Shown: positions 142-9,233 of the stretch, in pieces
How positions within the stretch are numbered: position 1 is the first letter of the stretch
Layout: each line of letters opens with the position of its first letter
Source of the DNA: an uncultured Porphyromonadaceae bacterium
Lineage (GTDB): Bacteria; Bacteroidota; Bacteroidia; Bacteroidales; Muribaculaceae
Direction of reading: 5' to 3'
Length of the DNA stretch: 17,993 bases
NCBI GenBank assembly: GCA_900550025.1
Contig: URQP01000050.1
Coordinates: 1-17,993, forward strand
Notes under the pieces: model-generated
The model's database searches: none
The model's input: only the letters and a program-made list of their open reading frames with translations
Told to the model about the DNA's origin: nothing
Program-made: the position numbers and the translations under genes

Positions 142-285
142 CTAGTTTATTTCTAAATATAAGTCTAATATGTTTTCACATTCTTCGTAGAATCGTATTG
201 CATGTTCACGGTTTTTGAAATTCTTTATCATCTCTTCTTTCACGGCTTTCTTGAACTCTTCTAAACTCATCTGTTTGTTATCCAT
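142..285 (-). CDS. Small soluble protein, 47 aa, unknown function
   Basis: The reading frame runs from ATG at 283-285 to TAG at 142-144 and gives a 47-residue product. It is highly charged, with many Lys and Glu, and is predicted helical (it begins MDNKQMSLEEFKKAVKEE). It has no membrane segment and no signal peptide. It sits 13 nt after the stop of the 58-aa membrane protein gene and is the last member of the minus-strand operon. An A-rich stretch without a Shine-Dalgarno sequence precedes the ATG, as is usual in Bacteroidota. The coding composition (few rare residues, balanced charge) and tight operon spacing argue for a real gene. I recognise no family. In the same frame after the amber stop, 13 more codons run to TAA at about 100; I take this as chance. 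Confidence 0.6.
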   Translation of the reverse strand: MDNKQMSLEEFKKAVKEEMIKNFKNREHAIRFYEECENILDLYLEIN

Positions 286-298
286 TGCTGTATTTTTA

Positions 299-475
299 TT
301 ATTTAAAATTATCTATGTACTTATTATATTTGCCTCGTCTATATACTATTGATATTATTGAAGGGAAAAATATCAAACAGCAAATTATGTCTATTATCCA
401 ACTGCCAGTGCTACGATTGTATTCAACCTTTTCGTTATGTTTGCGGATTTTTTTATTAAGTTCTTCTTGGTCCAT
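299..475 (-). CDS. Small membrane protein, 58 aa, unknown function
   Basis: The frame runs from ATG at 473-475 to TAA at 299-301 and gives 58 residues. Residues 1-24 are hydrophilic and charged (starting MDQEELNKKIRKHNEKVEYN). Residues 26-45 form one hydrophobic helix (WIIDIICCLIFFPSIISIVY), and a basic tail (RRGKYNKYIDNFK) follows. By the positive-inside rule the basic tail is probably cytoplasmic, but the basic N-terminus makes the topology uncertain. The gene lies 11 nt after the 68-aa membrane protein gene and 13 nt before the 47-aa gene, all on the minus strand, which supports a single transcript. No family is recognised. Confidence 0.6.
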   Translation of the reverse strand: MDQEELNKKIRKHNEKVEYNRSTGSWIIDIICCLIFFPSIISIVYRRGKYNKYIDNFK

Positions 476-486
476 AATTTAAATCT

Positions 487-693
487 TTAATTGGTTTCTG
501 AATTACTTGGTTTATTTGTTTTCATATCTACATAGTCTATCCTTTTTGAAGAGCAAAGAGTAATTATGAGCCCTAAAGGAAAAAAGATTATAGATAGAAT
601 AAAGGCTCCTCCGAATCCTATTTTCCTATTTCGCCCGATGCATCCTATTCCGTATGCAATAGCTACAATGATTATCAGAAAAAATATTTGCAT
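487..693 (-). CDS. Small two-helix membrane protein, 68 aa
   Basis: There are two hydrophobic segments, residues 2-18 and about 28-48, joined by a short basic loop (GRNRKIGFGG) and followed by a hydrophilic tail. The layout of helix, G-R-N-R-K-I-G loop, helix ending in FPLGLII, then a short polar tail matches a type of small inner-membrane protein common in Bacteroidota and their phages. That match comes from memory of the pattern, not a search. The gene begins 3 nt after the stop of the J-domain gene, so the two are very likely translated from one message. The function is unknown. It could help anchor or position the J-domain protein encoded just before it, but this is inference only. Confidence 0.75.
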   Translation of the reverse strand: MQIFFLIIIVAIAYGIGCIGRNRKIGFGGAFILSIIFFPLGLIITLCSSKRIDYVDMKTNKPSNSETN

Positions 694-696
694 AGT

Positions 697-1119
697 TTAT
701 TTGTTTTTAAAAGTTATATTCAATTCTTTTTCTGCGCGTTCTTTCAAGGCGAGGAGTGCGGTATAATTACGTTTGTTCGCCACCAAGAGCCCGAAAATTT
801 CGGTAGCTTTGTCATTTAGTTCCTTATCGGTGAACCGGTCGGGATGGCATTCTTTTTTCAAACTGTCAAAAAGAGCTTTTGATTTGAAAGAACTATTGAT
901 GACATTATTGAAATCAATATCGCCCTCGTGCATTATTTTTTCTTTTGTACTGTTTCTTGCCGCTTGTTTCCGTTTGTGAAATAGTGCAGTACCTAATATT
1001 AGAATTATTGCAAACTCAGCTATTGCCGCATACATCCAGAAATCAGGTATGTTGTATCCTGATGCGGCAGTATGTCTTACAATTGATTGAATGGAATCCA
1101 TATAGTTACTTGTTTTCAA
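697..1119 (-). CDS. Membrane-anchored J-domain-like protein, 140 aa
   Basis: Residues 29-47 form a single transmembrane helix near the N-terminus, followed by a basic stretch (HKRKQAARNSTKEK), so the C-terminal part is predicted cytoplasmic. Residues about 68-137 resemble the helix II-HPD-helix III core of a J domain. HPD is at 92-94 inside KKECHPDRF, followed by a helical segment (ATEIFGLLVANKRNYTALLALKERA). J domains stimulate ATP hydrolysis by DnaK-type Hsp70 chaperones through HPD, so this protein may recruit DnaK to the membrane. It lacks the Gly/Phe and zinc-finger regions of DnaJ. The ATG at 1119 overlaps the upstream gene by 14 nt. An internal ATG at 1101 (residue 7) would remove the overlap, so the start is not certain. 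The client is unknown. Confidence 0.8.
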   Translation of the reverse strand: MKTSNYMDSIQSIVRHTAASGYNIPDFWMYAAIAEFAIILILGTALFHKRKQAARNSTKEKIMHEGDIDFNNVINSSFKSKALFDSLKKECHPDRFTDKELNDKATEIFGLLVANKRNYTALLALKERAEKELNITFKNK

Positions 1120-1513
1120 TAAATTTTCCTATGTTGGCATAATCTATCAAAGACCAACGGCATCCGTAGCGTCCGTGGTCGCTGCAAACTTCTAATGTGT
1201 CCCATCCCAAAACGACCAGACGGCGTACTAATATCTCGTCGGAAAGCACAACTTCGCCTATCACTACAGTTTCTTCTTTTGTCAGTTGCCTTCCTGCTAA
1301 TGCCTGAATGCGGAATCCTGTATTAAGCAATGCGGAAAATTCGTGCCGGTAGGAGGACTCTCCGCGGGAGAAACTTGCTTTCAACGCTGTTGGTGCATCA
1401 CCAGTGATGAATGCTGCCCGTGCTGTTTCGTTGAAACTTCGAATCAGTTTGTTGCGTTCGCTGCGGTCTCTGAACCATTCTGCTATTCTATTCCAAGAAT
1501 TTGCTATATTCAT
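1106..1513 (-). CDS. Conserved-looking hypothetical protein, 135 aa
   Basis: This is a soluble protein with no signal peptide or membrane helix. The N-terminal half is helical and basic (RNKLIRSFNETARAAFITGD, residues 21-40). The middle has an alternating hydrophobic segment (VVIGEVVLSDEILVRRLVVLGWDTLEV, residues 83-109), and the C-terminus carries two cysteines near Trp (SDHGRYGCRWSL). I recall similar hypothetical proteins beside J-domain genes in Bacteroides, but can name no domain. It follows the 357-aa gene by 47 nt and overlaps the J-domain gene by 14 nt, so it belongs to the same unit. Its strong co-localisation suggests it works with the J-domain protein, possibly as a client or adaptor. 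This is inference. Confidence 0.75.
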   Translation of the reverse strand: MNIANSWNRIAEWFRDRSERNKLIRSFNETARAAFITGDAPTALKASFSRGESSYRHEFSALLNTGFRIQALAGRQLTKEETVVIGEVVLSDEILVRRLVVLGWDTLEVCSDHGRYGCRWSLIDYANIGKFIENK

Positions 1514-1560
1514 AATTGTATGAAATTCAATACAAGAGAATCTGTTTATTGATAGTTGTA

Positions 1561-2634
1561 TTACCGTTTCTCATAATTATTTCGCCAATCTATCAGGTGG
1601 TGGGGGAGTTTGACTGATTTAGCTGTCGCCCGGTTGCCTGTGACATAGTAATATCGTGCAAGGCTGTCGTCGAATTCCCTGATGAACGCCTCTCTTATCC
1701 GGGCGCATTTTTCGTTGATTGAGTTGCTGCAAGGATTTGTCAGGTCGTCAATGCTTTGTCTTATGGCTTCGTCAGAACTGCGTCCGCTCAATTTCGAATA
1801 TATGTCGGAGAGTTCTTCCTTATAATCCGGCAGTGTCTTGAAAAGTATCCCTTCCGGATGGCGCAGGAACAAGAAATATACGGCTTTGACAAGTGGTGTC
1901 ATTTTAATTTCTTTGTAGTCGTAGTCTGGCAGGAATATGTGCCCTGTTTCCGTTATCTGCATACGGCTTAACTTGATTTGTGGCTTTAATAATGATTTCA
2001 ATACCATCTCGCTTATGCCATATTGCCGCAGTTGCTCTATTTTTTCACGGACATCTTGCATTATGTTTGTCACTTCCGCGTCGAAATGCAGGTCAGCGTA
2101 GTTGACATCATGTTCCTGAGAGTCATAAAAGTCTTCCAAATCGGCTGTCCGTGCATCCATAAAAGGGATACGTCCGTTTTCCTGCTCGCATTTGAACGTA
2201 TCAAGCATAGCCGACGCTATGGAGTATAGCGATTGTCCTCCGTCTGGTAATGTTATCGATTTGAATGTGTAAAAATTAGAGCCTGAATTCTCATCGTCAT
2301 AGATTATCAATGACGGTTCTGGTAGGTGGTATCCGTTTTCTTTATAGATGCCGTTCAAGAAAGTGCTGTCGGGAAGTATTCCGTCAGCTTTTTTGATATA
2401 AGGTGTGTAATATCTGATAAAATCTTCGTTGCTGATTTCTTCGGCAATGCGCGGAATGTAGCAAAACCGATGCCTTGATTCTTGGAATGCCGATGCCAAT
2501 TGGCTGTAATTGTTCTGAATGAATTGATTTATGGCAGGGTTGTATGTCCCTTCTGCATATATTACTTCCGCATCCTTCGGGCAAAAAGGCAAAGGATGAC
2601 GGAACCGTAGTATGTCAGTTTTTAGTGTTGTCAT
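1561..2634 (-). CDS. Hypothetical two-part protein, 357 aa, first gene of the J-domain operon
   Basis: This is a soluble protein with no signal peptide. Residues 1-200 are an unrecognised N-terminal region rich in aromatic and acidic residues. Residues about 222-351 form a separate C-terminal module. Its landmarks are MTPLVKAVYFLFLRHPEGI (245-263), DYKEELSDIY (270-279), SINEKCARIREAF (305-317), DDSLARYYYVTGN (322-334) and LPHHLIDW (343-350). The module's spaced hydrophobic helices and terminal beta-like segment suggest a winged-helix-like fold, but this is not proven. I recall the same C-terminal pattern in several Bacteroides hypothetical proteins. A promoter lies just upstream at 2655-2686. 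The start ATG at 2634 sits about 15 nt past the expected transcription start, which supports it. The function is unknown; a sensor or regulator for the operon is one guess. Confidence 0.8.
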   Translation of the reverse strand: MTTLKTDILRFRHPLPFCPKDAEVIYAEGTYNPAINQFIQNNYSQLASAFQESRHRFCYIPRIAEEISNEDFIRYYTPYIKKADGILPDSTFLNGIYKENGYHLPEPSLIIYDDENSGSNFYTFKSITLPDGGQSLYSIASAMLDTFKCEQENGRIPFMDARTADLEDFYDSQEHDVNYADLHFDAEVTNIMQDVREKIEQLRQYGISEMVLKSLLKPQIKLSRMQITETGHIFLPDYDYKEIKMTPLVKAVYFLFLRHPEGILFKTLPDYKEELSDIYSKLSGRSSDEAIRQSIDDLTNPCSNSINEKCARIREAFIREFDDSLARYYYVTGNRATAKSVKLPHHLIDWRNNYEKR

Positions 2635-2654
2635 ATTATTTGTTCTTTCGTTTG

Positions 2655-2686
2655 CGAAATTATGTTGTTATTATTTCTTTGACAAA
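2655..2686 (-). promoter_or_regulatory. Bacteroidota-type promoter for the six-gene minus operon
   Basis: On the minus strand, TTTG (2683-2686) is followed after exactly 20 nt by TAATTTCG (2655-2662). That is seven of eight matches to the -7 consensus TAnnTTTG, at the correct spacing. Transcription would start near 2648-2651, about 15 nt before the ATG at 2634. Confidence 0.65.
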
Positions 2687-7459: not shown

Positions 7460-8139
7460 TGGAAGCTGTTGTCGCCTTCGATTTGGATGATACTTTATAC
7501 AAGGAAGTTGATTTCGTGCATTCCGCTTTTGCCGCTATTGCAGGTGAATTGGAATGTTGCGGATGCGACAGGAATGAGGTTTACGAAACAATGCGGACGG
7601 CTTTTGACGAGGGTGACAATCCTATAAATGCCGTGATTGAAAAATTCAACCAGCCTTTTACGGAAAAAGAGTTGGTTGAAATCTATCGCACTCATAAACC
7701 GGAAATTTCTTTGAGTGCCGGCGTACCGGAAATGTTAAGCGTTTTAAAGTCGTCAGGCTGTGATTTGGCCTTGATTACCGACGGTAGGCTAATCACTCAA
7801 AACAACAAAATAGAAGCATTAGGATTGGCTGACTATTTTCCTAAGCGGGCGGTTGTGATTTCTGAAACCACAGGTTGCGACAAGACAGCTCCTGACAATT
7901 TCATTATGGTTCAGAATACGTATGGCAATGCCGGTATTTTCTTTTATGTGGGCGATAATCCCGCAAAAGATTTTCTCCAGCCTAACAGGTTAGGTTGGAA
8001 CACCATCTGTTTGAAAGATGACGGAAGGAATATCCATCCTCAGGATATTGCAGCCGATAAGGAGGCGTTGCCGCATTATACGGTTAAAAATGTTTCGGAT
8101 ATAACTCAATTGATAATTAATTTGATAAAGCATAATTGA
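7459..8139 (+). CDS. HAD-superfamily hydrolase (phosphatase-like), 226 aa
   Basis: All four HAD motifs are present. Motif I is FDLDDT with nucleophile D8 and acid/base D10. Motif II is T108 in LITDGR. Motif III is K142. Motif IV is VGDNPAKD with D166 and D171. A helical insert between motif I and II (about residues 16-85) corresponds to a C1 cap, so it belongs to the HAD-IA-like group acting on small phosphorylated substrates. It is translationally coupled on both sides, with one-base overlaps with the aminotransferase (TAATG) and gmd (TGATG). In a sugar-nucleotide operon a sugar-phosphate phosphatase is the natural guess. The substrate cannot be read from sequence. No signal peptide is present, so it is cytoplasmic. 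Confidence 0.85.
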
Positions 8140-9233
8140 TGATGGCGGAGATTAAGAAAGTGGCTCTGATAACCGGTATTACCGGACAGGACGGTTCGTT
8201 TTTAGCGGAATTCCTGTTAGACAAAGGGTACGAAGTGCATGGTATAATCCGTAGGAGCTCCTCATTCAATACAGGCCGTATCGAGCATCTTTATTTTGAC
8301 GAATGGGTGCGTGATATGAAACGTAAGCGGTTGATAAACTTGCATTACGGCGATATGACCGATTCCAGTTCATTGATACGTATCATACAAGAGATACAAC
8401 CGGATGAGATTTATAATCTTGCGGCACAAAGCCATGTGAAAGTGTCGTTTGAAGTACCGGAGTATACGGCAGATACTGATGCTCTTGGCACGTTACGTCT
8501 TTTAGAAGCCGTACGGATGCTTGGGCTTGAAAAGAAAACACGTATATATCAGGCAAGTACTTCTGAATTGTTTGGCAAAGTGCAAGAAATCCCCCAACGG
8601 GAGACAACTCCGTTCTATCCGCGCAGTCCTTATGCTTGTGCAAAAATCTATGGTTTCTGGATAACGAAGAATTATCGCGAGAGCTATGGTATGTATGCCG
8701 TTAACGGAATATTGTTTAACCATGAGAGCGAGCGTCGGGGCGAGACGTTTGTCACACGTAAGATTACGCTTGCTGTCGCGCGTATTGTCAACGGCTTGCA
8801 GGATAAATTATATCTTGGCAATCTCAATGCCCGCAGGGATTGGGGGTATGCCCGCGATTATGTGGAATGTATGTGGCTGATAATGCAGCAACCCGAACCC
8901 GACGATTTTGTGATTGCCACGGGTGAGTATCATTCAGTAAGGGAATTTACGGAATGCGCATTCCGCCGCGCTGGCATTGAATTGAGATGGGAAGGCGAAG
9001 GTGTTGACGAAAAAGGAATAGATGTCGCAACCGGGAAGGTGCTGGTCGAGGTTGACCCGAAGTATTTCCGTCCGTGTGAGGTGGAGCAATTACTTGGCGA
9101 CCCTACGAAAGCCCGTACTGAATTGGGGTGGAATCCGCGTAAGACTTCCTTTGAGGAGCTTGTCAATATCATGACAGACCATGATATTGAGATGATACGG
9201 AAACACCGTCACGACTCGGACCGTATTATTTAA
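8139..9233 (+). CDS. gmd: GDP-mannose 4,6-dehydratase, 364 aa
   Basis: Gmd converts GDP-D-mannose to GDP-4-keto-6-deoxy-D-mannose using bound NADP. This is the first step to GDP-L-fucose and to other 6-deoxyhexoses. The NADP-binding GITGQDG motif is at 13-19, followed by the [11 protein letters not shown] segment typical of Gmd. The catalytic set is T141, E143 (STSELFG), Y165 and K169 (YACAK). [18 protein letters not shown] supplies the substrate-binding loop. The ATG at 8139 overlaps the HAD stop by one base; a second ATG at 8142 and a TTG at 8136 are alternatives. The length is in the family range. The next gene encodes the enzyme that uses its product. Confidence 0.96.

Follow-up and report, generated by a model that had tools for sequence, protein, structure and literature searches.

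The gene cluster

We have studied a cluster of six frames found near the beginning of a stretch of 17,993 nucleotides (nt), which we call the window, from an uncultured Porphyromonadaceae bacterium (assembly GCA_900550025.1, contig URQP01000050.1). All of them are on the minus strand. In their direction of reading they code for a protein of 357 amino acids (aa) in positions 1561–2634, a 135-aa protein which we call c1 (1106–1513), a protein with the residues HPD (697–1119, 140 aa with a TTG start, or 697–1101, 134 aa with an ATG start at 1101), a 68-aa protein which we call c2 (487–693) and two frames of 58 aa (299–475) and 47 aa (142–285). The distances between them, 47, –14, 3, 11 and 13 nt, are those given by an earlier sequence-only reading, which considered all six frames as one operon built around a membrane J-domain protein. 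We have found that its boundary was too wide: the conserved unit is the pair formed by c1 and the HPD protein, commonly accompanied by c2 and by a further gene, c3.

The first four frames are backed by conservation. The 58- and 47-aa frames stand as frames alone, and among the 6,306 open reading frames of the loci collected at that point they only match themselves. In relatives the position of the 58-aa frame is occupied by c3, a small membrane protein; the c3 profile does not match this frame and c3 is missing from the window. Hydropathy shows one membrane segment in the HPD protein, one in the 58-aa frame and two in c2; the 357-, 135- and 47-aa proteins have none. None of the libraries searched gives a name to any of the six proteins, so that the earlier impression of a composition without a named system still stands.

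The HPD protein is likely to start at the ATG in position 1101. With this start the overlap of 14 nt becomes a gap of 4 nt, which agrees with the median of 3 nt found between c1 and the HPD gene in relatives (35 loci, longest-frame starts). It is also the start of a database copy of 134 aa which is 99% identical (P0121).

Conservation of the c1-HPD pair

When the genome collection was searched with a profile of the HPD protein it gave 34 loci, which make 37 when a plasmid, a viral contig and the window are added. A search with c1 gave ten new loci, 47 in all, and the HPD gene is present in 45 of them. Among the 37 loci of the HPD search, of which the window is one, 35 have c1 directly upstream of the HPD gene. 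The two exceptions, L010 and L020, are at the start of their contigs, with 131 and 142 nt upstream of the HPD frame. The ten new loci come from viral contigs (L057 and L058), from the class sample (L059 and L060) and from the family sample (L079, L080, L081, L082, L083 and L084/L085, a split gene). Eight of them have the HPD gene next to c1; in L079 it is cut by the end of the contig, and the contig of L057 ends just past c1.

The usual form has four genes, c1, the HPD gene, c2 and c3. We find c2 directly after the HPD gene in 26/37 loci and c3 in 25/37, in the same order and strand. The order c1-HPD-c2(-c3) on a single strand recurs across Bacteroidota: the order of the core is kept in records labelled Bacteroidales, Flavobacteriaceae, Sphingobacteriaceae and Saprospiraceae, and not in close relatives alone. 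The sequence-only reading was right in supposing that a membrane J-like protein belongs to a conserved unit with the form of an operon. The six genes of that reading do not form a system: the 357-aa family is beside the pair in only 2/47 loci, the two short frames are not conserved and c3 is lacking from the window.

The association of both genes is also apparent when they are searched separately. Of 299 genomes belonging to one family, the same eight gave both c1 and the HPD protein (chance 7e-16), and in none was an HPD protein found without c1. When the two genomes known previously are removed, six of 297 remain, with a chance of 1e-12. The distances between c1 sequences follow those between HPD proteins, with a Mantel r of 0.73 which none of 2000 permutations attained; 33 of the 35 loci were used, leaving out L031 and L036.

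Some copies are either decaying or mis-sequenced. The J gene of L031 has an in-frame stop. In genome G362 (L084/L085/L092) c1 is split over two frames, while the J gene, c2 and c3 stay open.

The HPD protein and its partner c1

The HPD protein (697–1101) has an N-terminal membrane segment followed by a region similar to helix II-HPD-helix III of J domains. The three residues HPD are present in all 39 frames of this protein, window included, which have a mean identity of about 41%, and 31 of the frames have the membrane segment. An hhalign comparison with canonical DnaJ, represented by 13 J domains from six of the genomes which carry the module, gave a probability of 93.9 over 30 columns which cover helix II-HPD-helix III, whereas two control families gave 0.2 and 0.1. 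DnaJ chains are also found, in register, among the weak profile matches in the PDB (E 0.24 or more). Since Pfam family PF00226 is silent and the profile comparison does align with canonical J domains, we describe it as a putative divergent J-like protein.

The 135-aa protein c1 has 1673 relatives at E≤0.001; the 120 which were listed have no Pfam domain or functional name. In our loci c1 is well conserved, with a mean pairwise identity of 57%, invariant tryptophans and glycines and a motif LG-x-DTLE. The conserved residues do not include any obvious catalytic set. The AlphaFold2 model of c1 (pLDDT 88.3, pTM 0.83) has the fold helix-strand-strand-two helices-strand-strand, which has no match in the PDB at E≤0.001. 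A binding or adaptor protein would fit these features, given a confident fold with no clear relative in the PDB and no catalytic set.

Variants of the locus

In 16 of the 47 loci there is an extra protein with J-like repeats, often two, in which HPD is replaced by other residues such as NPK, APE or DFT (L024, L028, L027, L031, L033 and others). A C-terminal membrane segment is present in 16 of the 18 proteins of this type which were examined. They are not found in the window, and the one in L024 has no Pfam match. In L017 the HPD-less J-like protein is fused to a PsbP-like domain, below the cut-off. This domain (PF18933, at about 1e-4, also below the cut-off) was found in 2 of the 10 proteins scanned. 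Five loci have in common an upstream gene similar to lipoproteins, and the PsbP-like matches belong to two loci outside this group.

A divergent form is found in L081, L082 and L083, which were extended as L086–L088. Here the partner of c1 is a short J-like protein, and the pair is followed by a zinc-ribbon membrane protein. At least one of the three loci has nearby a protein with a metallo-beta-lactamase fold (complete in L087) and an AAA ATPase; a protein with a caspase domain beside a gene similar to sigma factors is also found in at least one of them. The neighbours were identified with Pfam in the copies of L087; the copies in L086 and L088 and the sigma-like gene were identified by eye. 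This form is possibly a distinct conflict system.

The 357-aa protein and the surroundings of the cluster

The 357-aa family mostly lives elsewhere and is only an occasional addition to the pair: the two loci where it is near the pair are the window and L011, in which it lies 475 nt upstream. Its profile matches 24 of the 345 class genomes, often only with its C-terminal part, and c1 is found in 3. Residues 222–346 form a winged helix of the OmpR/PhoB type, which makes a regulatory role plausible, and the protein is probably a regulator. It resembles in this C-terminal domain the winged-helix factors BaeR, SaeR, CadC and ToxR; it differs from them in its N-terminal part, about 200 residues with no match to any Pfam family. 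The list of fold matches is taken up by the C-terminal domain.

Three members of this family with 455–474 aa (P0047, P0056 and P0111) have an N-terminal extension which looks hydrophobic by eye, a feature which suggests membrane-bound winged-helix proteins. Another member is found in a viral contig (L038, 5974–7029), near genes which by eye are similar to Ro60/TROVE and to RtcB, a protein of RNA repair.

Upstream of the six frames there is a box of the Bacteroides promoter type on the minus strand (2655–2686; TTTG, 20 nt, TAATTTCG), with one mismatch to the consensus. It had been considered a good promoter. The box is present, but the pattern appears five times in the window against 2.9 ± 1.6 expected, which is near chance. 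On the other side, 3' of the last gene, the minus strand has a perfect hairpin with arms of 23 nt (36–58 and 64–86) and a loop of 5 nt. It has a folding z of –6.7 and no U-run, and may be the end of the transcript. The neighbours of the cluster are ordinary chromosomal genes: an upstream frame of 718 aa resembles elongation factor G, as judged by eye, and beyond it there are a radical SAM protein of the HemN type, genes for nucleotide sugars and a phosphate transporter.

Distribution and mobility

The module is accessory and patchy. Besides the genome on which the sample was centred, c1 was found in 2 of 344 class genomes, and six new cases appeared in 297 genomes of the family, so that the pair has a frequency of about 1–3% in the genomes sampled. 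Each of 15 carrier genomes has a single copy. The records span orders of Bacteroidota; one bin (L007) is labelled Chlorobiota, and its c1 is nearly identical to that of a Sphingobacteriaceae bin. In the c1 tree 13 of 41 branches are starred as well supported, too few for the tree to prove transfer.

The module is probably transferable, and it occurs in mobile elements. Five of 23 genomes have an integrase at 8 kb or less from c1, while the integrase density of the same genomes predicts no more than 0.80 (Poisson P 0.0014). Stretches with both an integrase and c1 are L001, L036/L056 and L060/L090. In L057 c1 (7995–8384) comes after a phage tape measure gene, and genes similar to endolysins are near c1 in L056 and L088. 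As a separate observation, c1 in L057 and in L058 (4713–5123) is apparent cargo of contigs which IMG/VR classes as viral. Four proteins of L058 and one of L057 have no match in PHROG, hence the phage label of L058 depends on IMG/VR.

Ten neighbour proteins, chosen by hand, were compared with the defence models of PADLOC (2023 version). The matches near c1 are proteins similar to restriction enzymes in L088, PsyrT-like and PDC-S01 proteins in L092, and PDC-S01, a caspase and a weak LmuA in L087. When the six proteins of the window were compared with PADLOC, the only match was SAVED_TM with the HPD protein (E 0.013); the other five gave none up to E 1.

Possible functions

J proteins direct DnaK to specific clients or sites. 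From this established biology and from the invariant HPD we infer that the pair docks DnaK. In the explanation which we prefer, and which we hold with even confidence, it is a transferable module of Bacteroidota by which DnaK would be docked at the inner membrane, c1 acting as the adaptor, and whose benefit is likely to be protection of the envelope. What the data show is the pair with its order, its co-occurrence, its patchiness and the excess of integrases nearby; the role of c1 and the protection are inferred, as is the docking. The N-terminal helix of the J-like protein would anchor it to the inner membrane, where its HPD loop would dock and fire the DnaK of the cell. At the cytoplasmic face c1 would either select the client or gate the J protein. 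A membrane platform may be formed or tuned by c2 and c3; in other loci the HPD-less J-like proteins, the zinc-ribbon membrane proteins or secreted PsbP-like proteins may be part of it. In the window the upstream winged-helix protein probably controls expression. The benefit would most likely be protection against phage or against damage of the envelope.

Several observations weigh against this explanation. As regards the pair, L010 only retains a C-terminal tail similar to c1, about 13 residues by eye; in the 142 bases which precede the HPD frame of L020 there is no c1, and this frame is itself short; L058 has c1 with no HPD gene and carries instead a zinc-ribbon/RDD membrane protein. As regards the J-like protein, PF00226 gives no match at E≤1, and 8 of the 39 frames lack the membrane segment; in one of them, L031, the lack is due to an in-frame stop which divides the gene. 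As regards mobility, the integrase excess consists of five loci, and the matches to PF00589 include recombinases of the housekeeping type. Close relatives keep a single chromosomal site (L002/L005 and L030/L033), and the pattern scans of IMG/VR gave only one J locus and three c1 loci, while no c1 was found in the phage records searched. The neighbour scans covered 134 of 150 listed proteins, from 323 candidates, leaving out five genes of the module itself and 11 by hand. No family of known defence is found in more than two of these 134 neighbours, for which there was no control set, and Pfam identifies many of the neighbours as housekeeping.

There are two main rival explanations, both less probable than the one we prefer. 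The first is anti-phage defence or superinfection exclusion: the module would be cargo of prophages and integrative elements, and would sense or block incoming phages at the inner membrane, where it would recruit DnaK, a host factor which many phages need. Patchy presence in single copies, the integrase excess, the tape measure and endolysin-like genes and the neighbours with PADLOC matches are in its favour, and so is the variation among loci of the membrane and lipoprotein-like partners. On the other hand the neighbours with PADLOC matches were hand-picked, the phage label of L058 comes from IMG/VR, and no defence family is frequent around the pair; the scarce viral copies, the stable chromosomal sites and the single match of the window proteins to SAVED_TM also speak against it.

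The second, with a similar modest chance, is an ordinary quality control of the envelope, of use only in certain habitats and with no relation to phages, in which DnaK would be brought to membrane proteins and lipoproteins that are nascent or damaged. It agrees with the membrane or chaperone-like nature of the parts, with the lipoprotein-like and PsbP-like companions of several loci and with the many housekeeping neighbours. Such a function predicts a wider and more vertical spread than the low frequency which we observe, and it does not agree with integrases being near the pair more often than expected.

It is unlikely that HPD is a fossil, without any work on DnaK, and that c1 uses the J-like fold for docking or as a scaffold. 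The silence of PF00226 would agree with it, and the HPD-less J-like proteins alongside in 16 loci demonstrate that the fold is used without these residues. However, HPD is kept in 39/39 frames at a mean identity of about 41%, whereas relatives of the domain in the adjacent proteins lack it, which indicates selection on HPD. A more elaborate explanation is similarly unlikely. In it a bacterial Hsp70 platform at the membrane, working like mitochondrial Pam18/Pam16, would be a mobile anti-phage shield: the HPD J protein and, in many loci, an HPD-less, tail-anchored J-like regulator would gate DnaK at the inner membrane, c1 would recognise a membrane-stage protein of the intruder, and exchangeable lipoproteins and zinc-ribbon proteins would set the specificity. 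Finally, it is very improbable that the six frames are unrelated small genes which came together by chance behind a single promoter: the lack of conservation of the 58- and 47-aa frames and the usual absence of the pair around the 357-aa family agree with this explanation, and it may hold for these outer genes of the window, but for the core it is ruled out by the recurrence across the phylum of the c1-J pair and of the order c1-J-c2(-c3).

Comparison with known systems

The c1-HPD module is real and seems undescribed: it would be a J-protein module whose partner family has no name. No title or abstract describes the pair in the literature searched, from which subscription papers are mostly absent. 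A nearly perfect co-occurrence links c1, a family with 1673 members, to a chaperone helper, so that two unknowns become a single unit which can be tested. If DnaK is recruited to the membrane, Bacteroidota would have a dedicated and mobile Hsp70 module; a protective role would make the module a system of defence or of stress response absent from PADLOC (2023).

Those class C (type III) J-domain proteins which are anchored in the membrane by their N-terminus, for example DjlA of E. coli, are small, have the HPD loop and lack the zinc-finger or substrate domain of DnaJ, as is the case for our HPD protein. They differ from it by its J region beyond the recognition of Pfam, its dedicated partner c1 and its patchy accessory distribution. 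A DnaJ domain is also found in predicted conflict systems, the GAP1-N2 systems with Hsp70/DnaJ, which are centred on a GTPase and have FNIII-repeat proteins (PMC7159879); the passage on them in that paper names no c1-like gene and no membrane J pair. The mitochondrial proteins Pam18/Tim14 and Pam16/Tim16, as presented in PMC3806816, are a further case. No homology with them has appeared and no translocase is linked to the module, whose HPD-less partner is optional, mostly tail-anchored (16/18) and often has two repeats. The likeness is in the arrangement only: an HPD J protein beside an HPD-less J-like protein at a membrane, as is found in 16 of our 47 loci.

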